From the IMG/VR virus record IMGVR_UViG_3300032315_001715, positions 124,001 to 188,000 of that record: 64,000 bases of DNA. One strand, written 5' to 3'. Every line of letters begins with the position of its first letter. Within the stretch, counting starts at the first letter, position 1. Below the pieces are notes generated by a model, which saw nothing but the letters and a program-made list of their open reading frames with translations, searched no databases and had not been told where the DNA came from. Origin of the DNA: a virus. Positions 42,749 to 56,279 of this stretch are shown here, one piece after another. A program made the position numbers and the translations under genes.

Positions 42749-43363
42749 TTAGCCATTAACAAAAAGAGGAACAGCCAATTCATTACCTTGAGTTGCGTTG
42801 TCGTAGCGAATTGTCAAAGTAATCATTGTCGGGTCAGAGCTAGAATAATCCATTTGATCATACTGTACCTGCTCAAGGAAGCAGCCCTCGAGGAACCATT
42901 CTTCAATAACGTTGGCAGGATATGCCATGGTACCATCGAGAGTTTGCATCAAGCATCCAAACTTGTAATTAACATGGGAACGAGCAGCACTCTGGCTAAA
43001 ATGATTCATCTGCTTTTGCAGTTGAGCGCTCACCAACCCAGAAACGCTATTGGTAATGTCGTCACGAAGGGCTATCTCAACGGTCTGCCATTCTGGCTTG
43101 TTAGCATAGTATGCAATGTTGTTGTAGCTGTGCAAGGCGGTATTGTTGTGCTGTAGCTGTGGTCGACCAGCTGTAGCAACCTGTTTGGTAAAATCGATCG
43201 GATTAATACCAGTTTGGCCAAAGCCCAACATCTGAACCCTGAACCGATGCTTTAGTTTTGGCATCAAGATCCCGCCTGTTAGGCCGGCCGAGTTACTAGG
43301 TACCCCGAATCGATTTAAGGTTCCGGTTTGCGTTATCGGATTTTGATTTGGAATGAGTGACAT
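42749..43363 (-). CDS. 19: Tail tube protein gp19-like
   Basis: The 204-residue protein is a T4-like tail tube subunit. KLKHRFRVQMLGFGQ and DFTKQVATAGRPQLQ match the tube family. Then come KPEWQTVEIALRDDITNSVSGLV, QKQMNHFSQSAARSHVNYKFG and VIEEWFLEGCFLEQVQYDQMDYSSSDPTMITLTIRYD. T4 gp19 is 163 residues. It polymerises inside the sheath (52245-56279). A GGAGG site and ATAAATA box precede it. Confidence 0.9.
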   Translation of the reverse strand: MSLIPNQNPITQTGTLNRFGVPSNSAGLTGGILMPKLKHRFRVQMLGFGQTGINPIDFTKQVATAGRPQLQHNNTALHSYNNIAYYANKPEWQTVEIALRDDITNSVSGLVSAQLQKQMNHFSQSAARSHVNYKFGCLMQTLDGTMAYPANVIEEWFLEGCFLEQVQYDQMDYSSSDPTMITLTIRYDNATQGNELAVPLFVNG

Positions 43364-43417: not shown

Positions 43418-44017
43418 TCACCGGCTGCTTGACAGGTCTGGATCGCAAGTGAGGGCAACAGGGTTCCCATTAGACTTCATCAATCGATCCCAGGTGGTTG
43501 CATGGCACAGATCGAGGATTATGTGTGTTCGTATTTCATTGCCGTTGTTCACCGCGCTGTGCTGCGTTCGATTATTGATCTCGTAGATATGCCCGGGTTC
43601 TAGATGCTGGGAAAAATCCCTCCATAGTTGCAGGCATTTTTCATTGGTTTTTACCGGAACATGTATCCTATGGCAGTGCTCGTGGAACCATGCTGGATCT
43701 CGATGCCATCCCAGCTGAACCCCTGGCATCAATGTAGCAACTTCCCCTCGTAAAAACACATGGTTGTCAAACATGGATATCACTTGATCGCATACCGGTT
43801 TGCACAATTCAAGCAGGGTTCGTTGATCATCGGTAAGGTGATAATCTCTCGACTTGATCGGAAACGGAAACACCACCAACTTTCCGTCCTTTAATGGCGG
43901 TTCGTGTCTAGCATATTCCTCTTGTATCCAGTTCATCATGTTGCATTGATGAGCAATCGGTTCTATAATTGATATGTCAATCGTTGTTAGGTGCTTAACA
44001 AAGCCATCAAAATCCAT
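43418..44017 (-). CDS. Aspartyl/asparaginyl beta-hydroxylase-like 2OG-Fe(II) oxygenase
   Basis: The 199-residue protein has the Asp/Asn beta-hydroxylase layout. GWH105RD107 and HRIHVPVKTN come first. The distal H153 lies in NNRTQHSAVNNG, and R163 in EIRTHIILD is the likely 2OG-carboxylate ligand. Substrate is unknown. It overlaps the divergent GNAT-like gene by 2 nt and opens the metabolic island on the tail-tube side. It could share the metabolite or peptide substrate of the island. Confidence 0.8.
   Translation of the reverse strand: MDFDGFVKHLTTIDISIIEPIAHQCNMMNWIQEEYARHEPPLKDGKLVVFPFPIKSRDYHLTDDQRTLLELCKPVCDQVISMFDNHVFLRGEVATLMPGVQLGWHRDPAWFHEHCHRIHVPVKTNEKCLQLWRDFSQHLEPGHIYEINNRTQHSAVNNGNEIRTHIILDLCHATTWDRLMKSNGNPVALTCDPDLSSSR
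43941..43969 (+). promoter_or_regulatory. Sigma70-like promoter TTGCAT-N17-TATAAT for the island operon
   Basis: TTGCAT (43941-43946) and perfect TATAAT (43964-43969), 17 nt apart, lie inside the antisense hydroxylase gene. Transcription would start about 40 nt before ATG 44016. No late box precedes this operon. Confidence 0.6.
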
Positions 44018-44654
44018 GGAAATCTCCGATCAAAACTTCTCAAGTATATATGAATGCGAACAGATAGCAAGTGATAACATCACACAATCAACATGGAATG
44101 ATTTGGTACGATTTGTAGAATTACAAACGTCTAAGTCTCCCAACCATGTTGCATTGTCGAACATGACCAACGAAGCACCGGCAGGTTTGCTGCATAATAT
44201 CGCGTCGAAAGCACGATGGACCAGCGACGTCGGAGAAATCGCACTGTTGCGGGCAAATGGTCAAATCATTGGGATCAGCTGCGTTGAATTCAGCGAGCTG
44301 CATTGCCAGCTTTCAGTCGGCGGAGCTAGATGTTGGCTGGATGATCAACATCGATCAAAACAGCTGATGAGCAGATATCTGTTAGACGCTAATCTGCGAT
44401 GGAGCCAAAATCGCCAATTATCAGGCATGCTGCTGACCTTTAACCATTACAATAAATGGATATATAATGGCATCAATCGAGCTGCTAATGGAAAAGCCGT
44501 TGGCATTGGATCGGTTTGGAGCAATTGGTGGGACGATTGCAAACCATTACCAAATCCAATAACCGTAAGATACACCAAACAATGGTGTGTGATCAAACCG
44601 CTAGCTAACCACGGACTAGACAACATCATCCAGGAGATTTTGAATTCCCAATGA
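44016..44654 (+). CDS. GNAT-like acyltransferase candidate
   Basis: The 212-residue protein (ATG 44016, after the proposed sigma70 start; an ATG at 43974 would leave no leader) has the GNAT-like order. A beta segment GEIALLRANGQIIGISCVEF is followed by a weakly conserved acetyl-CoA loop and helix (LDDQHRSKQLMSRYLLDANLRW), then GMLLTFNHYNKWIYN. This suggests transfer of an acyl group to an amine. First gene of the six-gene island run, overlapping the PP-loop gene by ATGA. Fold assignment is tentative. Confidence 0.45.
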   Translation: MEISDQNFSSIYECEQIASDNITQSTWNDLVRFVELQTSKSPNHVALSNMTNEAPAGLLHNIASKARWTSDVGEIALLRANGQIIGISCVEFSELHCQLSVGGARCWLDDQHRSKQLMSRYLLDANLRWSQNRQLSGMLLTFNHYNKWIYNGINRAANGKAVGIGSVWSNWWDDCKPLPNPITVRYTKQWCVIKPLANHGLDNIIQEILNSQ

Positions 44655-45595
44655 CTGATCTGTATTCAAAATTTGAACTATCAAAAAATAACCATATTCG
44701 ATATTGGTTTAATAACGATTGTAATCAAATATATAGGAATCTCGCCAATGAAAGCTCGCACATGAGCCTCGGCGGCGCCATTAGCAAGACAACCGTTTCA
44801 TTTCTAGACTCATTAATGAATTCTGCCCGAGAAATTGGTGGAAAACATCATGGTGAGTTCCATCTGTTTCTCAGTGGCGGTCTTGACAGCGAGTTAGCAT
44901 TTCGATCATTCATTAGAGCCGGTGTTAGATTTCGTCCAGTGATTGTAAAATTTTCAAATAATCTCAACATCGAGGATGTTGTTGGTGCGATTACATTGTG
45001 TGCAACAGCTAACAAGGATCCTATCATTGTTGATTTTGATCCACTTGAGTTTTTTCTATCTGAAGATTGGAAGCGGATTGCTGTTAGCTACCAAGCACAC
45101 ACGTTTTATCAACAACTATTGATAAAGATCGCTGAGAATCTAGCCGCACCAATGATAACCATCGATGAGATTGAGATCAGCCGGGGTGACAGGGGTATTT
45201 GGAAATTCGTAAAGAAGGAGGACCAAGACGGTTGTTGGCATCGATTCGTCGAAAAAACCGGAATTCCGGCATACAATAATTTCTACACATACGATCCTCG
45301 TACCATCATCGCATTCATGTCTAGCCGTCGAATCAAATCTCTAATCAACAACGATGTTCACGGAAAGCTATCTTGGAACAGCAGCAAAAATGAGGTATAT
45401 TTCGAGTTGACAAGATTAAATATGGCCAAAAGACACAAGCGCCATGGCATGGAAAGAATGATGCATATCTGGGAATACGTTGAGAACGCAACATGTTTAT
45501 TAATGCCCGGCAGCCCGAGGACGTTTGAATATTCGGCCATACCTCTCCAAGCCAATCTACGAACCATGGAAGAGATGACATGCAATACCATATAA
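44651..45595 (+). CDS. PP-loop ATPase related to asparagine synthetase
   Basis: The 314-residue protein has the adenylating P-loop FLSGGLDSELAF (SGGLDS 75-80) of asparagine-synthetase/ATP-pyrophosphatase enzymes. It then has a VVGAITLCATA helix and KDPIIVDFDP strand. No glutaminase N-domain or ThiI/TilS features are apparent. It would activate a carboxyl or amide by AMP and join it to an amine. It is coupled to the GNAT genes on both sides, so it may build an amide bond in the island product. Confidence 0.7.
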   Translation: MTDLYSKFELSKNNHIRYWFNNDCNQIYRNLANESSHMSLGGAISKTTVSFLDSLMNSAREIGGKHHGEFHLFLSGGLDSELAFRSFIRAGVRFRPVIVKFSNNLNIEDVVGAITLCATANKDPIIVDFDPLEFFLSEDWKRIAVSYQAHTFYQQLLIKIAENLAAPMITIDEIEISRGDRGIWKFVKKEDQDGCWHRFVEKTGIPAYNNFYTYDPRTIIAFMSSRRIKSLINNDVHGKLSWNSSKNEVYFELTRLNMAKRHKRHGMERMMHIWEYVENATCLLMPGSPRTFEYSAIPLQANLRTMEEMTCNTI

Positions 45596-46152
45596 GATGG
45601 ATCACCCACAACGATGCCAATAATGTTATGGCATTGTCTAAACACATATATGAAACCGACAAGGAATCATATCCCACCAATCTCAACGTATCCAACCCAA
45701 ACATTCTATCTGCATTTTTCGTATCAGAAGACATCACCGGATCATATAATCGCCGCGCTATTGGAATCTTCGACAACAACCAACGCCTTGTTGCTGCTAC
45801 CGGTACCAGGAAGATGGATTTCATACCGGTCTGGGTCCTAAGCTGGACACTGAGCAGCATTAAAACCGCACAGTTTGGATCCATCTGGCAAAAACAGCTT
45901 GGAATGCTTACGGACGATTTTGAAAGTCGAGGTATTAACGAATTTTACGTGGTAAGCCCTGCTAGCAGGGAGCTTGCTTACAAGAAAATGATGAGATTCA
46001 TGAGAAAACGCTACTGGACCTTCGCCGAGCTTAACATCAGTGCTGGTACCAAGCCTTCCCACGGATTGCATTGGATTATCATGGGAAATCAACTGTATTC
46101 GTATGATATAAACATTCGACGATATATCTTAAAAAGGGGGGACAATGATTAA
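45580..46152 (+). CDS. GNAT-like acyltransferase candidate
   Basis: The 190-residue protein has beta segments RAIGIFDNNQRLVAATGTRKM and a helix-strand pattern INEFYVVSPASRELAYKKMMRFMRKRYWTF suggestive of an N-acyltransferase fold. It overlaps the PP-loop gene by 16 nt and the desaturase gene by 8 nt. No catalytic motif is decisive, so this assignment is provisional. It could supply or use an acyl chain acted on by the desaturase. Confidence 0.4.
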   Translation: MQYHIRWITHNDANNVMALSKHIYETDKESYPTNLNVSNPNILSAFFVSEDITGSYNRRAIGIFDNNQRLVAATGTRKMDFIPVWVLSWTLSSIKTAQFGSIWQKQLGMLTDDFESRGINEFYVVSPASRELAYKKMMRFMRKRYWTFAELNISAGTKPSHGLHWIIMGNQLYSYDINIRRYILKRGDND

Positions 46153-47011
46153 CTGGATCAAATACACATGGCAAACATATAAGGTTACCGGGCAGATCCC
46201 ATACATTATTTCAATTTGGTTGCCTTTTCATCTTCTTTTAGTAGCTGGTATTGTTTTAGCCATCACAGCGTGGTCGTGGACTTATCTGGTGTATTTTGTA
46301 ATCGGATGGACCATTTTTGGTGGTCTCGGCACGGCAGTGATGCTGCATCGCCACGTGTCCCATCGTTCGATCGTCGTTAGAACCTGGATGAAACCAGGCT
46401 TATATTGGATCGGATGCTTGGCTGCACAGGGATCACCAATTTGGTGGGCCGCGTTGCATCGAGGCTACCATCACGCACATTCTGATAAAGACAAGGACAT
46501 ACACAGCCCAATCAATGGGTTCTGGCATGCATACATGGGCTGGATGTTTGGAATCAAACACGATTCAGTTAACCTCAAATACGGAGTCGAGCTGCTGAGA
46601 GATAAGCAGTTAATATGGTTCCATAAGAACTACAACATGGTGGTATGGGGATCAATTGTCGTGATGGCACTGATAGACCCTATGTTTTGTCTGTGGTTTT
46701 ATATCATACCAGCTATGGTTGGTTTACATACTGATAGCCTTGTAAACAGCGTGTGTCACACCATGGGTGCCGGATATCGACCGTTCGACACCAAGGATCG
46801 TAGCCAAAATGTTTGGTATCTCGGATATCTAGGCTGGGGCCAAGGTTGGCACAATAATCATCATTCTGATCCAAGAAGCTATGACTTTGGTACCACCGTT
46901 AGCAAAAAATGGTGGGAATTTGATCCGTGCATGTTATGGGTTCCAATCATATCGCCCTGGGCAGAAACTAAGAAAATTTGGGCACAATGGAGGAATTCAT
47001 GCGCTGGATAG
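46145..47011 (+). CDS. Delta-9-type fatty-acid/acyl-lipid desaturase
   Basis: The 288-residue membrane di-iron desaturase has three histidine boxes. They are H68-R-H-V-S-H73, H105-RGYHH-AHSD (105-113) and H236-N-N-H-H240. Long hydrophobic segments at about 25-57 and 165-195 flank them, with the box-2 tail DKDKDIHSP. It would insert a double bond in an acyl chain in the membrane using O2 and an electron donor. It is the clearest membrane enzyme of the island and overlaps the next gene by 13 nt. Confidence 0.9.
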   Translation: MINWIKYTWQTYKVTGQIPYIISIWLPFHLLLVAGIVLAITAWSWTYLVYFVIGWTIFGGLGTAVMLHRHVSHRSIVVRTWMKPGLYWIGCLAAQGSPIWWAALHRGYHHAHSDKDKDIHSPINGFWHAYMGWMFGIKHDSVNLKYGVELLRDKQLIWFHKNYNMVVWGSIVVMALIDPMFCLWFYIIPAMVGLHTDSLVNSVCHTMGAGYRPFDTKDRSQNVWYLGYLGWGQGWHNNHHSDPRSYDFGTTVSKKWWEFDPCMLWVPIISPWAETKKIWAQWRNSCAG

Positions 47012-47628
47012 CAATAGGAGCTACCGTTGAAAACGTTGTAATTGCTGCACACGACGAAATAACACTGCTAGAAACCATAGCCGAGCATGATTTCGACGTC
47101 ATCGTAAAGATATATGGATTGTCTGATGGTGAGTATAACGAAATCAAATCAGGCAACTATGAGTATCGAATTCGATTCAATAATCTAAGAAGCGTTTATC
47201 TTGAACGCATTGGTCGCAGCGAGGAAACCAAACAGCTATCTAGAATTTATACCAAACGAATACAACAAATGGTTGCAATGCGGGGTCGATACGAACATGC
47301 GTTCAACAAACACCGAGCGTTGCTGAGCCAGCAGTATGAAATTTATGAATCCAAGGCCATGGAAGCCAAGGACATCATCAACAACCAGAATAGCGCATTT
47401 TTTCTCGATGGGTATGTTAAGGATTATGCCGAGGAAGCCAACATGGATGTGTTGGCAGCAGCAACACTGATCTGGGCCAAATACACCAACTGGCACGAAT
47501 ATCTTCGAAAGATCGAGCGACTTCGCCTGCGGCATTTCAATGCACTCAAGACCGCCAAGACTGATGAGGATTTCCTTGCGCTTGCTGCCCAGGTCGACAA
47601 AGACTTCTTTATTAACATGCTGATGTAA
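46999..47628 (+). CDS. Unknown island protein, helical
   Basis: The 209-residue protein is read from the ATG 5 nt after GGAGG; upstream TTG and ATG codons are less likely. It is mainly helical (EETKQLSRIYTKRIQQMVAM, MDVLAAATLIWAKYTNW, YLRKIERLRLRHFNALKTAK). No known motif is seen. The high Lys/Arg/Tyr content and the operon position suggest an accessory of the pathway, possibly carrier or binding protein. This is inference. Confidence 0.6.
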   Translation: MRWIAIGATVENVVIAAHDEITLLETIAEHDFDVIVKIYGLSDGEYNEIKSGNYEYRIRFNNLRSVYLERIGRSEETKQLSRIYTKRIQQMVAMRGRYEHAFNKHRALLSQQYEIYESKAMEAKDIINNQNSAFFLDGYVKDYAEEANMDVLAAATLIWAKYTNWHEYLRKIERLRLRHFNALKTAKTDEDFLALAAQVDKDFFINMLM

Positions 47629-47638
47629 AGGAACGGCC

Positions 47639-48718
47639 ATGGAATTAGTTTATTACACCCCTAACAAGCTGTATTCTTATCAAGATATTCGAAGGATTGA
47701 TCCGATGCAGGTGTCGTTTTCACAGATGTTTAATCCAAGCATCAGCTTGATGGATCGAACAGGATCAATTAATTGTCCACCTGTGTCGGTTAAGATCCTA
47801 GATAGTTTCCCGGAATGGACATCGCCGCCAAGCTTCGAGGAACTATGTTACTCGAGGTATGATTCGATATTGCAGCAAGCATTATCCTCCAACAAGACCG
47901 TGGTGATCTTCTATTCCGGTGGGATCGACAGCACGCTGATAGCGGCATTAGCAATCGCACATCCGGATTTCCATCGCCATCGAAATAATCTGCTGTTGGC
48001 GTTTAGCGAGGAAAGCATCAAAGAAAATCCAAAATTTTGGTATGACCGATTGTTGCCAGCGTTTGGGCATCGGATCATAAATTCAAACGGATATCATACG
48101 CATATATCTGACCCAAACAATGTATGCATCACCGGTGAATTTGCTGACAACATTTTTGGTAGCCTAACGGTTAAAAGCTACATGGATGTTAGTGGCGACT
48201 TTGATGCTATACAAAAGCCTTTTGCAGATACTGGAAGATTTTGGCTCTTAAAGAAAATCACCAGTCCTGCTGATCGAGATCGATGTGGTGATATGATGGA
48301 CAAGATCTTCGCAACCAGTCCCAGACCAATGGTGTCAAATCATGATTGCCTGTGGTGGTTGAATTTTGTGCTAAAGTGGCAAGCTGTTAAATTCAGGCTA
48401 GCTAGCCATGCACCTACACCCGATATGGTTGATCTCATGGCTAAAAATGTGGTCCATTTTTTTGAAACCAAGGAGTTTCAAAACTGGGCGGTGATGACCG
48501 ATGAACCAAAGGTTGAAAAGGATTGGTACAGCTATAAGCTGCCAGCAAAGAAGCTAATACATTCAATCAATGGCGACGATTATTATCTACGCTGGAAGAC
48601 CAAGTATCCTAGCATACCCGGATTGACCAGGTATGCTAATACACACGATTTCATATATTGGGACGAACCCAATGATCGATATGTTGCATCAAAGGATTAT
48701 CTATTACCTCTGAAGTGA
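47639..48718 (+). CDS. Asparagine-synthetase-like PP-loop amidotransferase
   Basis: The 359-residue protein has SGGIDS (93-98) and the AsnB-specific motif TGEFADNIFG (165-174, TGEGADELFG in AsnB). The glutaminase N-domain is absent; residues 1-60 are a short beta-rich module. Such C-domains are used for carboxyl adenylation and amide or lactam formation. It is last in the island run, after AAGGAA, and converges with the 2OG oxygenase gene. Amine source and substrate are unknown. Confidence 0.75.
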   Translation: MELVYYTPNKLYSYQDIRRIDPMQVSFSQMFNPSISLMDRTGSINCPPVSVKILDSFPEWTSPPSFEELCYSRYDSILQQALSSNKTVVIFYSGGIDSTLIAALAIAHPDFHRHRNNLLLAFSEESIKENPKFWYDRLLPAFGHRIINSNGYHTHISDPNNVCITGEFADNIFGSLTVKSYMDVSGDFDAIQKPFADTGRFWLLKKITSPADRDRCGDMMDKIFATSPRPMVSNHDCLWWLNFVLKWQAVKFRLASHAPTPDMVDLMAKNVVHFFETKEFQNWAVMTDEPKVEKDWYSYKLPAKKLIHSINGDDYYLRWKTKYPSIPGLTRYANTHDFIYWDEPNDRYVASKDYLLPLK

Positions 48719-49446
48719 TCGTAAAGGCCGGTTCGATTTAAAAAGTCATCTGAGAACACGCCGTCGATCCTTAGGCTCCAATTGGCAAACTGGCAGGGTT
48801 CTGAACCGTGCCAGTTTGCGTTATCAAAATATATCACCCGAGAATCGGTATAGTGTTTGGTACCGTCGTTATCTAACACGAAGAATCGCTTGAGGGAGTT
48901 CAAGGTTAACCATATGAATTCGTTTCGATGGCTTCGAGGATTGGGATAATCCCGATGTGTTACGGTTTTAACGCCCGGTTCGTTGATGAACATCACCACA
49001 CGACCGTATTCGTTAAATACATTTTGGGAATCAATCCATTCAAATAGAAATTTGAAATCATTGGTAACGGGGGTATCAATGCAACTATCGTGCAGATGTT
49101 TCGTGCTGTAATGGTCCTGTTTCATCACACGGATATACATCGCTTGGTTCAAGCTAACCACCGGATGCATGTATTTGCAATAGGTGTAAAATCTACCAAG
49201 GCTTCCCAGCTTCGTGGCAATCTGTCTTGCATCTGAGGTTGGATCCCCTACCAAACCTTTTGCAAAGTCACCAAGCTCAATTTGTGTTTGATCATATAGA
49301 TTTGCTTGCACACCAACCAAACTGGTATAAATTTGTTCAGGATATTTGGCAATGGCATATGCAAACGCAGATTGGTGCTGTTCAAGCGCAGAAATATCTA
49401 TGTGGGTTGATAGATCAACCCACGGTTGATCGTTGACAAGATGCAT
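48697..49446 (-). CDS. 2OG-Fe(II)-oxygenase-like protein
   Basis: The 249-residue protein starts at the ATG preceded by GGAGAG. The longer ORF reading from 49536 is unlikely. Core motifs are VKTVTH164RD166, the distal H213 in NANWHGSEPC, and R226 in NWSLRIDG. The strand VMFINEPG-VKTVT-HRD is typical for beta-hydroxylase relatives. A divergent sigma70-like promoter with the Rieske gene lies just upstream. Function in the island is probably hydroxylation. Confidence 0.7.
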   Translation of the reverse strand: MHLVNDQPWVDLSTHIDISALEQHQSAFAYAIAKYPEQIYTSLVGVQANLYDQTQIELGDFAKGLVGDPTSDARQIATKLGSLGRFYTYCKYMHPVVSLNQAMYIRVMKQDHYSTKHLHDSCIDTPVTNDFKFLFEWIDSQNVFNEYGRVVMFINEPGVKTVTHRDYPNPRSHRNEFIWLTLNSLKRFFVLDNDGTKHYTDSRVIYFDNANWHGSEPCQFANWSLRIDGVFSDDFLNRTGLYDHFRGNR

Positions 49447-49473
49447 GTTACTCTCCGAAATTGATGTTGACTT

Positions 49474-49502
49474 TTGGCATGTCTGCCTACATCGTTTATA
49501 AT
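49474..49502 (+). promoter_or_regulatory. Sigma70-like promoter TTGGCA-N17-TATAAT for the Rieske gene
   Basis: TTGGCA (49474-49479) and TATAAT (49497-49502) with a 17-nt spacer, 28 nt before the Rieske ATG. Near-perfect consensus. Confidence 0.65.
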
Positions 49503-49524
49503 TAAATACATACAGATAAGTCAA
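49495..49524 (-). promoter_or_regulatory. Divergent sigma70-like promoter TTGACT-N18-TATAAA
   Basis: On the minus strand TTGACT (49519-49524) and TATAAA (49495-49500) with an 18-nt spacer drive the 2OG gene at 49446. It shares its -10 with the plus-strand promoter, so the two overlap. Confidence 0.5.
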
Positions 49525-49529
49525 ACCAG

Positions 49530-50555
49530 ATGTCATTAATCATTGATCCACGTAGTTATCATCAACAAGAAGACCACACACAATGGCCTTCTAGATTCCC
49601 AGCATGGTTGACTACAACGCAGGATTTATCCCCCGGAAGCTATGTGGTTCCTGATCACGATCACTCGATAGTCATGTTGGGAGGAGAACAACCTCGATGC
49701 ATGGCCAACGTCTGTACTCACAAACGATCCGTCATTCTCAAGGGAAGGGGACAGATCGGATCGGTGATGACCTGCCCGATACATAAATGGACATGGAGCT
49801 TAACCGGAAAGCTACGCGGCGCTAGGGGTTTTGAAAAAAGCTGCGAAATGGATCTCGAGGAACACCCGATACACACATGGCAAAGCCATATTTTTGGCGG
49901 AAATCAAAGCTGGCAAGAGGACATTGGATCTCTTGGCGATCTTGCCAAATGGTTGGATATACAGGACTATCAGTGGCATAGCGGATCAAGATTAAGCTAC
50001 GCATTTGATTGGAAGATTTTCATGGAAATCTTCCTAGATCTCTACCATGTTGCACCGTATCATCCTGGACTTCGAAGCTTAACCGATTGCAACACATTTG
50101 ATTGGATATTTGGCAAGCATTGGAGCTGTCAAACCGCTAAGTTTAACAGGGATTGGCCAAATGAGCTTGGTTATAGGGAGTTGTATAAGCTTTATCAGAA
50201 ATCAGGTCACTACGATTCGGCGATATATGGTGCGGTATGGTTGGGAATCTATCCAAACATCATGATCGAATACTATCCGGGATCAATCGTTGTTAGTACG
50301 GTATGGCCTGACGGACAAGGTAAGTGCGTTAACCATCTTGATTTTTATTATGAAACGTGGTTGTTGGAAAAATTTCCAGAGTTTCCTGCGGTATTCCAAA
50401 ATACGTTCATGACAACCGCCGACGAGGATGAAGAAATCGGGCTTAGGATGCAAGAAGGGTTATCATTGACCAAGACCCCATTTAAATCAATGAACCACAA
50501 GATTGAGGAAGCTGGGTATCAGCATTTCCATCAATGGTTACAAACGTATCTTTAG
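49530..50555 (+). CDS. Rieske non-heme iron oxygenase (ring-hydroxylating/demethylase-type alpha subunit)
   Basis: The 341-residue protein has the Rieske cluster C62-T-H64 and C82-P-I-H85. The mononuclear iron site is at D170-LYH173-VAPYH178, with a carboxylate near D298/D300 in TTADEDEEIGL. The C-terminal EEAGYQHFHQWL segment also fits. This is a complete Rieske oxygenase catalytic subunit, which hydroxylates or demethylates small substrates with O2 and an external reductase. No reductase or ferredoxin is visible, so host electron transfer would be needed. A sigma70-like promoter precedes it. Confidence 0.92.
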   Translation: MSLIIDPRSYHQQEDHTQWPSRFPAWLTTTQDLSPGSYVVPDHDHSIVMLGGEQPRCMANVCTHKRSVILKGRGQIGSVMTCPIHKWTWSLTGKLRGARGFEKSCEMDLEEHPIHTWQSHIFGGNQSWQEDIGSLGDLAKWLDIQDYQWHSGSRLSYAFDWKIFMEIFLDLYHVAPYHPGLRSLTDCNTFDWIFGKHWSCQTAKFNRDWPNELGYRELYKLYQKSGHYDSAIYGAVWLGIYPNIMIEYYPGSIVVSTVWPDGQGKCVNHLDFYYETWLLEKFPEFPAVFQNTFMTTADEDEEIGLRMQEGLSLTKTPFKSMNHKIEEAGYQHFHQWLQTYL

Positions 50556-51097
50556 ATAGAGCAAGCTACCAAATGTATTCGAGGTGTCCATCCGCCGTTG
50601 AAAACAAAGTGCTCTTTGGCGGTATGGACCCTGTACCAGTGACCATCAGATGGTAAATGATAACATATTGATCTTATTGAACTTTTTTCAAAGCATTCGC
50701 CAAATATTGCATTAAGGTTAGTGTCGATCGCTAGGTGATATCTATATCCGTCGTCCTTATGCATCGTTAGTCCGGTCTTGGGCATTAGTCGCATGAATCT
50801 AACCCTGCCCCATTTTACCCCAAGTGTCGATGAGAGATTTTTCAGTACACCCCTGGTATAATCAGGACATTGATCGTTCCATTGATCAAAATCAGATTCA
50901 ACGGCTAAGGTCTTTTTGGCAACGGTATCATATATCCACCCAGTGCAGTCTTTCCATTGGTCTGATGCATTAATTCGATGCCTAAGCCCAATTTGATTAT
51001 TTGATTCCCACGATGTCATTGACAACATCCGTTGAAGATCAGAACGAATCTGATCAAGATCAACGGTACCTTCTATTTTTTTGATAAAATCACTCAT
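50552..51097 (-). CDS. 2OG-Fe(II)/beta-hydroxylase-like protein
   Basis: The 181-residue protein has H113-K-D115 in LTMHKDDGYRYHLAI, distal H163 in AKEHFVFNGGW and R173 in PRIHLVA. The phage pattern of a short beta-hydroxylase-like oxygenase is clear. It overlaps the methyltransferase-like gene (start 51677) by 8 nt, so the two are co-translated, and it meets the Rieske 3' end. Substrate unknown; a modification step of the island product is likely. Confidence 0.7.
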   Translation of the reverse strand: MSDFIKKIEGTVDLDQIRSDLQRMLSMTSWESNNQIGLRHRINASDQWKDCTGWIYDTVAKKTLAVESDFDQWNDQCPDYTRGVLKNLSSTLGVKWGRVRFMRLMPKTGLTMHKDDGYRYHLAIDTNLNAIFGECFEKSSIRSICYHLPSDGHWYRVHTAKEHFVFNGGWTPRIHLVACSI

Positions 51098-51677
51098 GAT
51101 TCTTTCTACCTATGATCATGTATCTAGAAAAATTCCACGTCGGATAATTGAAATCAAGCTGGCCTTTATACATCATCGGGGATAGACCATAGTTTGAGAC
51201 AAATGATTCTAGATCATCATAGCAATCATGATGATCGTCATGCGGCATGTTATTGCTTTGCAATACCATCATGGTACCAGACGGTATGCGATCATACCAA
51301 TCCCTGGAATGAAAATGTTCGGTGCTGGTATTAATCACGATATCCGGTGGTGGTCCATATTCTCCGCTGATTGGATCTATGGAATTACAGTCTCGGGTAA
51401 ATGCCTTGAATTTCCAACCTTGCCATATCCAATTTTCCATCAGGCTATCAGCTGTTGATTCACAGCTCGGATCAACATCAAAGCTCCTGATGTGTGATAT
51501 TGGCATGATCTGCCTTGCTAGCAACAGCATTCCGGTCATAGCGTGCCATCCACCGTATAACCAAATTATCTGCGGGCGATCGTACTGCATCCGTTCCAAT
51601 TGAGAACAAAGCCATAACTTGCTTGATATCTGGCCGCTGCTAAAAGCATCCCTACTGACAAGAAACTGATCAGCCAT
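51090..51677 (-). CDS. Class I SAM-methyltransferase-like protein
   Basis: The 195-residue protein has a Rossmann-like order: motif I IIWLYGGWHA (37-46), motif II IRSFDVDP (63-70) and the post-II strand DIVINTSTEHF (112-121), followed by a SGTMMVLQSNN strand. The classic GxGxG loop is changed to YGGWHAMTG. It probably binds SAM or NAD and methylates a small molecule. It is coupled to the 2OG-like gene. Confidence 0.6.
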   Translation of the reverse strand: MADQFLVSRDAFSSGQISSKLWLCSQLERMQYDRPQIIWLYGGWHAMTGMLLLARQIMPISHIRSFDVDPSCESTADSLMENWIWQGWKFKAFTRDCNSIDPISGEYGPPPDIVINTSTEHFHSRDWYDRIPSGTMMVLQSNNMPHDDHHDCYDDLESFVSNYGLSPMMYKGQLDFNYPTWNFSRYMIIGRKNHE

Positions 51678-51966
51678 GACCGACCTGGCCGTACGTATTA
51701 TAGCTCACTTTTTCAATTGTCGACGAGAAGCTCTTTTCGAATATTGTCTGGGCTACCCGGAGATACTCGTTGCGATATTTTTCGGGTATCTGTCCAATGA
51801 TCAGCCCTAAATTTGTAGCAACCGCAGATACAACAACACCAATGGACTGATCCGGTGGGATCGTTTCGATCATCTGCTGATATAACTCTGATATGTATTC
51901 ATACATATCCTCATTTATCGCGAGTTGGATATCCGTAATGTCACTATGATCGTCGTTAGTTGCCAT
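51670..51966 (-). CDS. Small hypothetical protein
   Basis: The 98-residue protein is helical, with IAINEDMYEYISELYQQMIETIPPD-like N-half and a hydrophobic helix (IGVVVSAVATNLGLIIGQIP) that could be membrane-associated. It overlaps the methyltransferase-like start by 8 nt. Function is unknown. Confidence 0.5.
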   Translation of the reverse strand: MATNDDHSDITDIQLAINEDMYEYISELYQQMIETIPPDQSIGVVVSAVATNLGLIIGQIPEKYRNEYLRVAQTIFEKSFSSTIEKVSYNTYGQVGHG

Positions 51967-51969
51967 TGT

Positions 51970-52173
51970 CTATTGCTTCTTCTTTTTGTAACGAGTTAGC
52001 AAGGCTGATATAGTTTCAGCATTTCCTTGCTCTTCAGGGTGATTCTGTAATAACCATTCTTCAACTTCCATGCAGGTACGTTGATTTGTTGCTACCAGTC
52101 GAAGCATTTGGATCGCTTCTTCAAGTCGTAATTCTAAGATTTGTATTTTGCTTTCAGGAGACTTCTTAACCAT
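51970..52173 (-). CDS. Small coiled-coil protein
   Basis: The 67-residue protein is a helical/coiled-coil peptide (SKIQILELRLEEAIQMLRLVATN) with a basic tail KKKKQ. It precedes the 98-residue gene by 3 nt and lies after the sheath terminator. Role unknown. Confidence 0.5.
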   Translation of the reverse strand: MVKKSPESKIQILELRLEEAIQMLRLVATNQRTCMEVEEWLLQNHPEEQGNAETISALLTRYKKKKQ

Positions 52174-52244: not shown

Positions 52245-55200
52245 TTACGCAGAACCTCCTGGTAGAGGATCGCCAGTATTGAGTATCCTGATCGGGATAT
52301 AGATGAACTCAATCGCCTTTTCTGGCTTGATCGCAATATCAATCCACAGCTCGTTCCTGTCAATTCTTTCAGCGGTGTTGTTGCTGTCGTCGCAAACCAC
52401 GGCAAAGTCGTACACTGCCCGCAGAGTTTGCAGGTTGCGCATGAAGGAATTAAACGTAGCAACGACGTTCTGGCGCGTTTGCTGATCGTTAGGCTCAAAG
52501 AGGAACGGTTTTGCAAGTATATCTAGGTTGTATTTGAGATAGTTAATCAGCCGTACAACGTTGATTCGATCCAGTGCCGTGGGCACCGGGCTTAGGGTCT
52601 TCTGACCATATACCACAAGTCCTCGACCTGGAATGAACGCGATCGGATTGATCTTGTTGGCGTAGAGAACATCGCGCTGGCCTTGATTCAACCGGACCAC
52701 GCTGTATTCTTCCTCGGCATTGAGATATCCAACGCTTGCTACACCGGTAACCAATCCTCGGTTGAATCCTGCCGGAGCAAACCACGGATATGCAACCTGA
52801 TCGCTGTATGCTATGGTACGAAGGGCCATCATCGCCGCCGGTACCATTACTTCATTACCGTTGAGATCCGTTCCAAGACCCCAAGGATAGTAAAGGGCTG
52901 CATACGGAGTGCTGCTGGTTAGTCCATCTGGACCATTGCTTGCTGCACCGTTCTGATTGTTAGCCCATTCCGTGAACGCGGTGCCAGTTGGTTCTAGCGT
53001 TGCAGGTGTGTCAGCTACGATAAACGCAACTTCCTTCTTGTCAACATTTAGGGTGATCATTTCATCCAAGCATTCAACATATCCGGGGGTTGAAATGAGG
53101 TTGAAATAGGTTTCTTCGGCACGTGCTTCCTCGTTACCACTAATCGCACCCTGCAACCCGCGCACGATGACAGCCCTCTGTGCTGCATCGCCCATGTACG
53201 GTGCACCGTTGAGCTGATTGCCACTTTCGGTAACCCAACGGTCACGATAAGAATATGTCGTCGGTAGGTAGTTCTTTCGGAACACCTTGACGTTGTTGGT
53301 GCTGTAACGGGTATTAAACAACATCATACCGGCTGGATACAACATTGCATCTGGGCAATCTGGATCAACATAATCGCTGGTAACCATATCACTTTCAATT
53401 TGGCTGCCAGTTGCGGTGCCGTTAGCATTTGGACGTGCATCGGCAAACACGATCCCCTTGCTGGTGGTTCGATCGGTGTTATCGACCAACACCCAGCTTG
53501 CATCCATGCTGCTGTATCGATAGATTGCCGGATATGTCGATACGTTGGTATCAATCCAGATATCGTAATCAACCAATGCACCAAGAGTGCTTTGCTCAAG
53601 AGGAGCCTCGCTTGACAATATCGGTCCGTTTGGATCAGTTGCTGGATATGCATTCCTATAGCCAAGCCACTGTGTTCCGTTATTGACCATGATATCGGCA
53701 CGCAACGTTGTATTGTACCAAAGTGTGCCATCAACCGGAGTACCGCTCGGAGCAGACGCTGATGGAGTATAATCTAGGTCAACCCACGAAGTTCCATCCC
53801 ATTCCTTGATGACATGCGATGCTTCGGCCGGAGATGTGTTGTCGCTGTTATACAGCACAAACACGCTGCCGATTTGCTTGAGACTACCAAATGCAACATC
53901 AGCTGCCGACGTCGACGAATACATGGGAACCGTACCGGTGTTCGGCCTAATGTTTAGGGACCGCCATGCAGCTCCGGTATAGGTCTTAACCGAGTAGTTT
54001 GCACCTTGGTTTCCCGGCGTGGTGTTGATCCACACATTGGTAGCAGCGATGCTGGATAGATCAGACGGTACAGTTAACCCTGGTGAATAACCCTGGTAAA
54101 CCAGCGAACGACCAAAGGTTACACCTGCAGCAATTCCGGCTCCTGCCAATGGGCTTTCCCTGATATCCTCAAGGATAAAACTGGTGCCATTGGTGTTGGT
54201 AAGTTTCAGCATGTTGTCGGTGGTCTTGCTTGCTACGATCGGACCGTTAGGGAATCCAACCGTATTGATTTCTGCAATCAATCCATCCAAGGTATTGTTA
54301 GGAAGGGCCGGAACGTGGATTATCACCGGGCCGCTGCCTGCGTCAATGCTGAAACTCACGCTCTGCAACCAGTCATCTATAAGATTAAACGTTGCGCCGA
54401 CTCCACCACCGGTGACCGACACCGGATTAGTTGGGTATATCGTATAGCTACCAGGAGTGGTAACAGTTACAGTGTTTACACCCCATACCAAGTCAACCGT
54501 TGCACTATCTCCGCCGCCGGAGGTCGAAGTTGCTGATACGTTTGTGGTAGGAGCAACAGCACCGGTATATTGACCAGCCTGGACAATGCTCAGCCCGGTA
54601 ATACCGTTCGATCCATCAATGCTGTCAACCTTCAATATCACCGGTGTTGCAAATCCAGCTCCGCTAAAGGTCAGCGTGTCATTAACATCGTATCCGCTAC
54701 CTGGGACGTTTGGAGTGCCTCCGACGACCTTAATGCTAGCGACTGTCAATACCGTTGCCGTGCTAAAGGTACCTCCAGCAACCGTCAACGCATCACTAAC
54801 CGCGTATCCGCTGCCAGCTGCTACCGAGGTAGCGCTTGCGGTCTTCAGCGTTGCTGCGGTAAACGTTGGATTGCTAACGGTGCCGGTTACGCTGGCCCAA
54901 TAGGTGTTGGTAGGAAGTATTCCTGCATTCCTCCACGGTGTTCCGACGCCATACTGATCACTGAGATCATTAACGATGATGTCGGTCGAATCATAGTTGG
55001 TTATGCGTAGATATTTTTGGCTACCAACGGTGTACACAGATGCCACGGCATTAACACTGGCCGTGTTAAGTGCAGTGTTGATTGCACCGACAAATCCAGT
55101 CAGCGTGCCACCAGATGGTACCGTAATCGTTGCTGTGCTCACTGCACCGATCGTGATCTTGCACTGAGTGCCGGCGGTAAATGTTGGATTTGCAACGGTT

Positions 55201-56279
55201 CCAGTTAACACACGCGGAGCAGCTTCTCGCCATCCGTATCCAGGATATGTATCATCGGTGCTGCCAACCTTGAACCACCAATTAGCCGTACCAGTGTTGG
55301 TGTTGACAGATATCTTTTCCCAGATCTCATTCTTGTAGCTACCGTCAGCCGCTTCGAGGGTATTCACGGCAAAATCACCAGAGGCGCCAAAGATCGTGGT
55401 AGGTAACACAACGTTGTCAGGCAGTGCTGTAAATCCTAAATCGGTTAGGATTCCGGCGGTTGAGCCGCCAAGAACAATGTCCTGTATCATGTTCGAGGTA
55501 ACCAGCCTTAGGCTAAACACGTCCCCGTAATCAGACGCCGATGGCGAATACTTTTCAGATCGAACAAAGACCTGTGCGCGAACCTGCTGTGTAGCAAGTG
55601 CTGGACTTCCGTTGATCTTGCTAGCCACGGTCGAAATGCTCATCCCTGCGGTTAGTGGCAAGGAAACACCGTTAACAATGAGATTTCCGTTGGCATTAAT
55701 GCAGCTACCAGATCCGCTGGTAATCTTCACAGTTGCATTACCTTGCACGATCTTTTCGAGATTTAAGCTAGAATTAATAACCAATGGCGTGCGGGCCTGC
55801 CAGCTAAATGCCGGGTTTGGATTACCATTGCTACGGAAGATGCCAAACGTGGACGAGCTTAGGTCAAGCCAATTTTGTCCGGCAGTTACAGGACCGGTCG
55901 GTTCGGTCGAAGTTGGGATCAACTGTCCAAGATCAACATTGGCGCGGACCACATATGCTTGATTGGCAATTCCGAGGTACTCATACAAGGTGAAAAGTCC
56001 AAGCTCGTTAAGCTGATTGCCCTGCTGCACGGTGCCAGCTGAGCTGTAAAACTGCGGATTGCCAAACGTCTGCAACGCATCTCGCTGGCTGGTAATCAAC
56101 CATAGCTTGCCGGCATTTTCTGCGGTGGTTCCAGGAGCAACGGACGTCGCACTACCTGGTTGCAGCTTGTTCTGCTTGGTAGCGATTACGATAAATGGTA
56201 CGGTGCCCGGTCCAGCTGGGCCATATTGGCTTTCGTCGGTTACGGTAACGCTTACACCTGGAGAAACTAAAATAGCCAT
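52245..56279 (-). CDS. 18: Tail sheath protein gp18, greatly enlarged
   Basis: The 1344-residue sheath is twice the T4 gp18 length (659). The conserved N-terminus MAILVSPGVSVTVTDESQYG and the C-terminal contractile domain from about residue 1000 (VAFIVADTPATLEPTG... VNVVRLINYLKYNLD..AKPFLFEPND) are standard. Between them lies an insertion of about 360-900 with small repeated domains. These include GSGY repeats (near 489, 527 and 568), TGTVxNPTFTA modules, and a fibre-type unit LWYNTTLRADIMVNNGTQW. The insert probably decorates the outside of the sheath. GAGGTAACAA and a late box precede it. Confidence 0.95.
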   Translation of the reverse strand: MAILVSPGVSVTVTDESQYGPAGPGTVPFIVIATKQNKLQPGSATSVAPGTTAENAGKLWLITSQRDALQTFGNPQFYSSAGTVQQGNQLNELGLFTLYEYLGIANQAYVVRANVDLGQLIPTSTEPTGPVTAGQNWLDLSSSTFGIFRSNGNPNPAFSWQARTPLVINSSLNLEKIVQGNATVKITSGSGSCINANGNLIVNGVSLPLTAGMSISTVASKINGSPALATQQVRAQVFVRSEKYSPSASDYGDVFSLRLVTSNMIQDIVLGGSTAGILTDLGFTALPDNVVLPTTIFGASGDFAVNTLEAADGSYKNEIWEKISVNTNTGTANWWFKVGSTDDTYPGYGWREAAPRVLTGTVANPTFTAGTQCKITIGAVSTATITVPSGGTLTGFVGAINTALNTASVNAVASVYTVGSQKYLRITNYDSTDIIVNDLSDQYGVGTPWRNAGILPTNTYWASVTGTVSNPTFTAATLKTASATSVAAGSGYAVSDALTVAGGTFSTATVLTVASIKVVGGTPNVPGSGYDVNDTLTFSGAGFATPVILKVDSIDGSNGITGLSIVQAGQYTGAVAPTTNVSATSTSGGGDSATVDLVWGVNTVTVTTPGSYTIYPTNPVSVTGGGVGATFNLIDDWLQSVSFSIDAGSGPVIIHVPALPNNTLDGLIAEINTVGFPNGPIVASKTTDNMLKLTNTNGTSFILEDIRESPLAGAGIAAGVTFGRSLVYQGYSPGLTVPSDLSSIAATNVWINTTPGNQGANYSVKTYTGAAWRSLNIRPNTGTVPMYSSTSAADVAFGSLKQIGSVFVLYNSDNTSPAEASHVIKEWDGTSWVDLDYTPSASAPSGTPVDGTLWYNTTLRADIMVNNGTQWLGYRNAYPATDPNGPILSSEAPLEQSTLGALVDYDIWIDTNVSTYPAIYRYSSMDASWVLVDNTDRTTSKGIVFADARPNANGTATGSQIESDMVTSDYVDPDCPDAMLYPAGMMLFNTRYSTNNVKVFRKNYLPTTYSYRDRWVTESGNQLNGAPYMGDAAQRAVIVRGLQGAISGNEEARAEETYFNLISTPGYVECLDEMITLNVDKKEVAFIVADTPATLEPTGTAFTEWANNQNGAASNGPDGLTSSTPYAALYYPWGLGTDLNGNEVMVPAAMMALRTIAYSDQVAYPWFAPAGFNRGLVTGVASVGYLNAEEEYSVVRLNQGQRDVLYANKINPIAFIPGRGLVVYGQKTLSPVPTALDRINVVRLINYLKYNLDILAKPFLFEPNDQQTRQNVVATFNSFMRNLQTLRAVYDFAVVCDDSNNTAERIDRNELWIDIAIKPEKAIEFIYIPIRILNTGDPLPGGSA

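Follow-up and report, generated by a model that had tools for sequence, protein, structure and literature searches.

A recurrent PP-loop, GNAT-fold and desaturase gene cassette of large uncultured phages with a possible role in acyl-amide synthesis

Our analysis of a 453-kb phage (IMG/VR record IMGVR_UViG_3300032315_001715) has revealed an island of enzyme genes that separates the tail-tube gene from the tail-sheath gene. The core of this island is found again in dozens of other, uncultured viruses as well as a small number of Bdellovibrio-like bacteria, and we therefore think that the viruses carrying it probably build a lipid-like small molecule of their own. Our preferred reading, to which we give a probability of roughly 0.55, is that phages maintain the island as a biosynthetic cassette, which depends on an acyl carrier protein (ACP) and yields a tailored unsaturated acyl-amide.

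Results

Positions refer to the window, the 64,000-nucleotide stretch of the record that was analysed. An open reading frame check placed eleven genes at 43418-51677, all at the coordinates below; an earlier note on this DNA had spoken of ten, although its own list sums to eleven.

42749..43363, minus strand: left flank, tail tube protein (phrog_4542, 7.2e-47)
43418..44017, minus strand: g1, 2OG-Fe(II) oxygenase of the Asp_Arg_Hydrox family, accessory (PF05118, 1e-7; HRD motif kept)
43974..44654, plus strand: g2 (GNATa), GNAT-like, first core gene (42-member family matching GNAT Pfam models)
44651..45595, plus strand: g3 (PP3), PP-loop ATP-pyrophosphatase, amide-ligase-like, core gene (profile, AlphaFold, Foldseek, motif)
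45580..46152, plus strand: g4 (GNATb), divergent GNAT-fold protein, core gene (AlphaFold, hhalign)
46145..47011, plus strand: g5 (DES), membrane acyl desaturase, core gene (PF00487 FA_desaturase, 2.4e-14)
46999..47628, plus strand: g6 (HEL6), helical protein with no assigned function (family alignment; conserved start, ATG at 46999)
47639..48718, plus strand: g7 (PP7), second PP-loop enzyme, of another family than g3 (marginal Asn_synthase match, 0.00036; family invariants)
48697..49536, minus strand: g8, 2OG-Fe(II) oxygenase-like, accessory (HxD...H...R motif)
49530..50555, plus strand: g9, Rieske non-haem iron oxygenase, accessory (Pfam Rieske 8.9e-10, Ring_hydroxyl_A 1e-27)
50552..51097, minus strand: g10, 2OG-Fe(II) oxygenase of the Asp_Arg_Hydrox family (PF05118, 1.1e-8; HKD motif)
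51090..51677, minus strand: g11, methyltransferase-like (assigned from sequence only; no Pfam match)
52245..56279, minus strand: right flank, tail sheath protein (tblastn to the tail sheaths of two rhizobial phages)

As had been noted earlier, six plus-strand genes overlap or abut; with the ATG at 46999 taken as the start of g6, the overlaps are 4, 16, 8 and 13 bp and there is one 10-bp spacing. Purifying selection is strong in 11/11 genes when compared with the nearest distinct relative, locus L023 (dN/dS, or pN/pS where dS was saturated, 0.02-0.22). Within the window the T4-type late promoter TATAAATA was not enriched, and sigma-70-like sites were not above chance. None of the PADLOC anti-phage defence models matched the ten island proteins submitted, which rules out known defence systems as the identity of the island. 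Enzymes similar to those of the island are scattered elsewhere over the phage genome.

Both PP-loop enzymes claimed by the earlier note were confirmed, g3 by profile and fold and g7 by a marginal Asn_synthase match and its family invariants, and SGGxDS is intact in each. G76, G77, D79 and S80 are invariant in an alignment of 59 members of the g3 family, and the family profile matches NAD synthetase (1.4e-6). Like beta-lactam synthetase, carbapenam synthetase and asparagine synthetase B, g3 carries the PP-loop motif, and its AlphaFold model (314 residues, pLDDT 94.4) has carbapenam/beta-lactam synthetase as its best PDB fold by Foldseek (9.5e-6). Unlike these enzymes, however, g3 has no N-terminal Ntn-type glutaminase-like domain, its modelled PP-loop domain starting near residue 51 and leaving no room for one, and its global similarity to known amide synthetases is moderate only (TM about 0.4). 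The model also reaches a TM of 0.93 to an uncharacterised protein of an uncultured phage. No curated model claims g3, and members of its family show weak matches to the QueC and tRNA_Me_trans Pfam models and to MnmA/TtuA sequences and folds. The alignment of g7 to g3 is limited to the PP-loop region, and relatives of g7 in Bdellovibrionales score 242-277 bits.

Searched as single proteins, g2, g3, g4, g6 and g8 gave no significant Pfam match. Nevertheless, the GNAT-like character noted earlier is borne out for g2 and g4: members of the g2 family match Acetyltransf_1 (best 3.9e-5) and share an invariant R, and the AlphaFold model of g4 (pLDDT 88.5) has a GNAT fold (PDB 3g8w, 1.3e-7). In addition, hhalign places g4 in one family with cluster c2 over its full length (99% probability, E 3.6e-18). 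A reading of g2 and g4 as ordinary acetyl-CoA enzymes is not supported, however, as the CoA-binding loop R/Q-x-x-G-x-G/A is conserved in neither family. The earlier note had proposed a check of active-site residues in the PP-loop, GNAT and 2OG proteins; these are intact in the PP-loop and 2OG enzymes, whereas the CoA loop of the GNAT-like proteins has been lost.

Catalytic motifs are kept in the desaturase, the Rieske enzyme and all three 2OG enzymes, in agreement with the earlier assignments. The three His boxes of g5 (HRHVSH, HRGYHH and HNNHH) have His residues invariant in 52 relatives, and the g5 profile matches stearoyl-CoA desaturase 4ymk at 2.1e-25. The g9 protein has CxH...CxxH and DxxHx4H intact, and the HxD...H...R residues of g8 are invariant in 23 relatives. 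Relatives of g10 lie near PP3 in Bdellovibrionia (8/24 bacterial loci), the g11 family is present in 38 loci, and where g6 occurs it is usually followed by a member of the g7 family.

The core, GNATa-(ACP)-PP-loop-GNATb-desaturase, was found again in dozens of uncultured phage contigs. Among 68 non-redundant desaturase-anchored loci, selected by similarity to g5, PP3 is present in 67 and lies within 1.5 kb in 63, against about 25 expected under uniform placement; GNATb is at most 1.5 kb from the anchor in 61. An independent scan anchored on PP3 recovered the desaturase in 68 and GNATb in 69 of 80 loci. Pairwise distances also co-vary (PP3-GNATb r=0.935, DES-PP3 0.55), and 0/2000 permutations were as high; since the desaturase tracks PP3 only moderately, it may be exchanged. 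The cassette is found beside tail sheath/tube, UvsX/SSB, ribonucleotide reductase/PAAR or HNH/ATPase genes, and its gene order differs as well. Because both order and neighbourhood vary, this linkage is not mere synteny within a single lineage.

Whether the gene order recurs elsewhere, a check suggested in the earlier note, can be answered positively: L023 has the full gene set (66-88% identical), L026 and L029-L032 share the six-gene plus-strand backbone, and most of the 68 loci contain the core. Genes g1 and g8 are absent from L026 and L029, and in L029 a fatty-acid hydroxylase-type gene takes the place of the Rieske gene with the backbone unchanged. The idea of one joint pathway is thus well supported by co-occurrence for the core, but its extension to every gene is not supported, as g1, g8 and g9 come and go among close relatives.

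An ACP gene was found within the fetched locus in 26/68 desaturase-anchored loci. Its family has an invariant Ser, and the family profile matches PDB ACPs at 1e-12. There is none inside the present island; the ACP of this phage is encoded 57 kb away (G000:C1:230868-231113), adjoins baseplate genes and scores 28.4 bits against the Pfam PP-binding model, above the cut-off of 20.8. Since this gene lies outside the island and beside baseplate genes, we infer rather than observe its use by the island enzymes. We identified neither a thioesterase nor a phosphopantetheinyl transferase in the island, and likewise no fatty acyl-AMP ligase and no amino-lipid O-acyltransferase. The earlier note had left the product as an acyl-amide, lipid or peptide; the finding of an ACP and the hydroxylase-type replacement in L029 make an acyl-derived product more likely.

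When bacterial genomes were scanned, a single phage PP3 sequence as query gave nothing, and a PP3 subset alignment found four Bdellovibrionales loci. One Bdellovibrionales chromosome (L188) groups PP3, two desaturases, GNATb, ACP, GNATa, a 2OG gene and two B12 radical SAM genes. GNATb occurs in only 4/369 Bdellovibrionota genomes, all 4 of which also have PP3. The full set is missing from most PP3-bearing Bdellovibrionia, and PP3 alone is therefore not diagnostic. Because 60/64 phage PP3 proteins form one lineage, separate from nearly all bacterial relatives sampled, the cassette looks like an old phage possession and not a recent capture from a host. A tblastn search of 50,697 phage records with three PP3 representatives gave no match. 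Matches in Acinetobacter phage MD-2021a appear to be bacterial chromosomal DNA within an assembly labelled as phage, because trp, btuB and baeSR surround the match.

Discussion

We infer the following order of reactions, with an ACP acting in trans. The core would comprise GNATa, ACP, PP3, GNATb and the membrane desaturase; the ACP, supplied in cis in other phages, would here probably be the distant phage protein or that of the host. The g5 enzyme would desaturate an acyl chain bound to ACP as a thioester (or carried by a lipid), and PP3 would spend ATP on an acyl-adenylate and then an amide. The GNAT-fold proteins, lacking the acetyl-CoA loop, may take the ACP-bound acyl group and an amine as substrates, and the exchangeable oxygenases g1, g8, g9 and g10 together with the methyltransferase g11 would decorate the product. 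This would be an unsaturated acyl-amide, for example an N-acyl compound or an amino-lipid, that the phage has made in the course of infection; our guess is that it targets the membrane of the infected cell, or competitors. The roles proposed in the earlier note, superinfection exclusion and host benefit, are likewise speculative.

Alternatively, the enzymes could modify proteins, with a GNAT-fold enzyme using an unsaturated fatty acyl group supplied by ACP to acylate a lysine or the N-terminus of a host protein or a phage (tail) protein, and the Asp/Asn-hydroxylase-type 2OG enzymes hydroxylating the same or other proteins. HlyC-type enzymes transfer acyl groups from acyl-ACP onto protein. The position of the island, with a tail tube gene on one side and a tail sheath gene on the other, the ACP together with GNAT folds that lack the CoA loop, and two enzymes of a family named after aspartyl/asparaginyl beta-hydroxylase are all consistent with such a role. 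However, it would leave the PP-loop amide ligases, the Rieske oxygenase and the methyltransferase superfluous, and other phages carry the cassette at sites remote from tail genes, as do bacterial chromosomes. We consider protein modification unlikely.

Slightly less probable still is a loose collection of auxiliary genes that have nothing to do with one another and form no joint pathway, at a hyperplastic insertion site in a T4-like structural region. Such sites exist in T4-like phages, and in cyanomyoviruses one lies between g15 and g18 (PMC2984593). The differences in g1, g8 and g9 between close relatives and the spread of similar enzymes over the same genome fit this explanation, which may hold for those three genes. 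It does not account for a core that stays linked across many contexts despite altered gene order, for the co-evolution of PP3 and GNATb, or for the presence of PP3 in the Bdellovibrionota genomes with GNATb.

The PP-loop enzymes TilS, MnmA, TtuA and QueC act in tRNA or base modification, and GNAT-fold and oxygenase proteins are involved in making hypermodified phage bases. A nucleic-acid or nucleotide modification system, to which the weak QueC, tRNA_Me_trans and MnmA/TtuA resemblances of PP3 might point, is nevertheless quite improbable, as it has no place for a membrane acyl desaturase or an ACP, the best folds are amide synthetases and an RNA-binding domain was not recognised.

The acyl-amide cassette that we favour can be compared with known systems. 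Bacterial alkyne/polyyne clusters of the JamABC type combine a membrane desaturase, a dedicated ACP and a fatty acyl-AMP ligase (PMC8406139). The island is likewise a small cassette with a membrane fatty acyl desaturase (PF00487, three His boxes); as to the dedicated ACP, which in JamABC stands beside the desaturase, one is present in 26 of the 68 phage loci and in L188, and in this phage it is absent from the island and encoded elsewhere in the genome. Unlike JamABC, the island has a PP-loop enzyme together with a pair of GNAT-fold proteins; neither a thioesterase nor a rubredoxin was found, and Pfam recognised no AMP-binding domain in g1-g10. In ornithine/amino-lipid synthesis by OlsB, OlsA and OlsC, an N-acyltransferase using acyl-ACP acts on an amine and the lipid is then hydroxylated (PMC4484230). 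Our scheme would similarly involve N-acylation from acyl-ACP followed by hydroxylation. In contrast to Ols, the island adds a PP-loop ligase and a desaturase, and the acyltransferase families are unrelated by sequence: GNATa and GNATb match generic GNAT Pfam models only, with no OlsB-type domain, and an OlsA-type O-acyltransferase is absent among the island genes scanned with Pfam.

No described equivalent of the gene set was found in the mainly open-access journal literature and the family libraries searched. We tentatively raise the possibility, which we still regard as doubtful, that this is an undescribed pathway: a PP-loop enzyme would stand in for the usual acyl-AMP ligase of an ACP-desaturase cassette, and the product would be an acyl-amide of a new class, by which the infected cell is remodelled. 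Many lineages of large uncultured phages would have kept this pathway for a long time, and Bdellovibrio-like predators would share it.

Known viral metabolic genes are mostly copies of steps in host metabolism. A multi-enzyme cassette that combines an ACP and exchangeable oxygenases with PP3 and GNATb, both of them enzyme families without a name, resembles a phage-owned secondary-metabolite cluster, and raises the question of why large phages and predatory bacteria have it in common. The five-gene core is a defined set suited to expression and product testing.

Lipid desaturases are reported from cyanophages (Roitman et al. 2018), and a freshwater pelagimyophage has fabF and a stearoyl-CoA desaturase (PMC7029224). 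In pelagiphage Mosig EXVC030M a desaturase gene lies beside Asp_Arg_Hydrox and GNAT genes, but this enzyme shares just 30% identity with g5, and PP3 is missing from the Mosig island. As for the host of the present phage, the sole pointer is the likeness of its tail sheath to those of rhizobial phages (tblastn: 42.7% to Agrobacterium phage Atu_ph07 and 45.2% to Sinorhizobium phage Phosso).

Location and gene content of the island

The window (G000:C1:124001-188000) belongs to a virus record of 452,799 bases, and its ORFs place eleven enzyme-like genes, g1 to g11, between two tail genes:

42749-43363, tail tube gene on one flank of the island (phrog_4542, 7.2e-47)
52245-56279, tail sheath gene on the other flank (closest isolates are Agrobacterium phage Atu_ph07 and Sinorhizobium phage Phosso, 43-45%)

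A comparable enzyme set was absent from the sheath neighbourhood of Atu_ph07. T4-like phages have hyperplastic insertion sites among their structural genes (PMC2984593). The tail-cluster position suggests late expression of the island; a search of the window for promoter evidence on timing found none. Two small genes (51670-52173) lie between g11 and the sheath gene and are kept in relatives having the sheath beside the island.

The desaturase (g5), the Rieske oxygenase (g9) and two Asp_Arg_Hydrox enzymes are backed by Pfam, which gives no more than a hint of a PP-loop enzyme. Family profiles and AlphaFold models assigned g3 (PP3) to the PP-loop enzymes, with carbapenam, beta-lactam and asparagine synthetases as its closest solved folds, and the AlphaFold model of g4 (GNATb) has a GNAT fold. 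The earlier note's reading depended on active-site residues in the PP-loop, GNAT and 2OG proteins. Catalytic motifs are indeed intact in the PP-loop and 2OG enzymes, as in the desaturase and Rieske enzymes, but the R/QxxGxG/A loop, with which GNATs bind acetyl-CoA, is conserved in neither the GNATa (g2) nor the GNATb family. The window's GNATb and its counterpart in most other phages (cluster c2) form a single family (hhalign 99%, E 3.6e-18). Comparison of the window with its relative L023 showed strong purifying selection on all island genes.

Recurrence of the core in phages

Island genes do co-occur in other genomes: the core was found as a unit in many viral contigs from both desaturase and PP3 anchors. 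Scanning 2.9 million viral contigs with the desaturase as anchor found 79 loci, of which 68 remained once near-duplicates were removed. PP3 was present in 67 of these, within 1.5 kb in 63, where about 25 would be expected under uniform placement of PP3 copies in the same loci; GNATb lay within 1.5 kb in 61, while GNATa occurred in 45 and an acyl carrier protein (ACP) in 26. A PP3-anchored scan gave 307 relatives. Of the best 80 loci, 68 have the desaturase and 69 have GNATb; where the desaturase is missing, the contig nearly always ends near PP3. Protein distances of PP3 and GNATb were correlated at 0.935 (60 loci), and those of the desaturase and PP3 at 0.548, with 0 of 2000 permutations as high. 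The cassette is real and widely conserved in phages; its gene set, co-inheritance, folds and motifs are shown here.

The commonest order is GNATa-(ACP)-PP3-GNATb-desaturase; desaturase-PP3-GNATb and others were also seen. Neighbours of the core vary, and include tail genes, UvsX with a single-strand-binding protein, ribonucleotide reductase with PAAR, and HNH/ATPase genes. Near the cassette of some phages is a periplasmic TctC-type tricarboxylate-binding protein (cluster c38, 10 members, e.g. L063:5084-6007; PF03401, 2.7e-18).

Close relatives keep GNATa-PP3-GNATb-desaturase-HEL6-PP7 (g2 to g7, PP7 being the second PP-loop enzyme) and also the 2OG oxygenase g10 with the methyltransferase-like g11, while the presence of g1, g8 and g9 is variable. 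In locus L029, the gene at the Rieske position belongs to cluster c67; the L032 protein of this cluster is a fatty-acid hydroxylase (PF04116, 6.3e-18). Such swaps around a fixed backbone follow the pattern of biosynthetic clusters, in which tailoring oxygenases are swapped around a constant core.

A search of 50,697 phage records yielded no PP3 family member, and no NCBIfam or PADLOC model covers the core PP3 and GNAT proteins. In a viral structure library, the nearest PP3 relatives are annotated only as uncharacterised uncultured-phage proteins (TM 0.93). Phage desaturases are already known; a search of the literature, incomplete in coverage, yielded no description of the linked cassette. An analogous island in Pelagibacter phage Mosig (MT647606.1, 50765-69283) has a desaturase, two Asp_Arg_Hydrox, GNAT, aminotransferase, carbamoyltransferase, nitroreductase and MoaA-like genes, but differs in being without PP3.

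Bacterial relatives

A subset profile search found PP3 in four Bdellovibrionales assemblies. One 413-kb contig (L188) carries PP3, two desaturases, a membrane protein, GNATb, ACP and GNATa, along with an SDR gene, transketolase-like genes, a 2OG gene and two B12 radical SAM genes, all bordered by ordinary chromosomal genes. PP3 occurs in 24 of 144 genomes of the class Bdellovibrionia. Across the phylum Bdellovibrionota, 4 of 369 genomes have GNATb, all with PP3 (on the same contig in 3), and two have GNATa, that of L188 and G053. The latter (G053:C1:72000-91900) combines GNATa with PP7, two genes of the g8 2OG type and two desaturase genes; PP3 was not found at this locus, which is a different combination of the same toolbox. 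An AMP-binding-ligase-like gene lies 5 kb off. Of the 64 phage sequences in the PP3 tree, 60 group together, separate from the bacterial ones, and therefore the phage cassette looks old; one long-branched bacterial sequence falls beside the main phage group.

A possible acyl-ACP pathway

Many relatives encode a 74-residue ACP immediately 5′ of PP3, with an invariant DSL motif and a profile that matches solved ACPs at 1e-12. No ACP gene lies in the window's island. The L030-L032 group, which shares the GNATa-to-PP7 backbone with the window, has its ACP flanked by two 2OG genes. The window's own genome encodes one elsewhere:

G000:C1:230868-231113, ACP gene adjoining baseplate genes (above the Pfam cut-off)

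The phage cassette is very likely biosynthetic, and we infer an acyl-ACP pathway with an amide as its end product. Acyl-adenylates are made by the PP-loop enzyme family, and PP3 may carry out the adenylate-forming step in place of a fatty acyl-AMP ligase. The bacterial JamABC cassette comprises such a ligase, a desaturase and an ACP (PMC8406139). The likeness would lie in combining desaturase with ACP, which is present in 26 of the 68 phage loci and in L188 but, for the window's phage, elsewhere in the genome; in contrast, the adenylate-forming enzyme here would be of the PP-loop type, and Pfam found no acyl-AMP ligase in the island, which places it outside JamABC. Amino-lipid synthesis offers a precedent for acyl-ACP N-acylation followed by hydroxylation (PMC4484230), but Pfam found no OlsB or OlsA domains in the island genes or GNAT families, so we do not assign the cassette to that pathway.

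Other features of the same genome

Outside the window, two adjacent CTA-anticodon tRNAs (G000:C1:321051-321206; L016:13051-13206), called tRNA-Pyl by ARAGORN, are possible amber-suppressor tRNAs. Over 40 tRNA genes are present in the genome, together with a permuted tmRNA (C1:111695-112033). A second enzyme-rich area, in a tRNA-rich region (G000:C1:388280-404301; L020), encodes two B12-binding radical SAM proteins, several methyltransferases, a GalE-like gene, c20-type 2OG oxygenases and a g10 paralogue.
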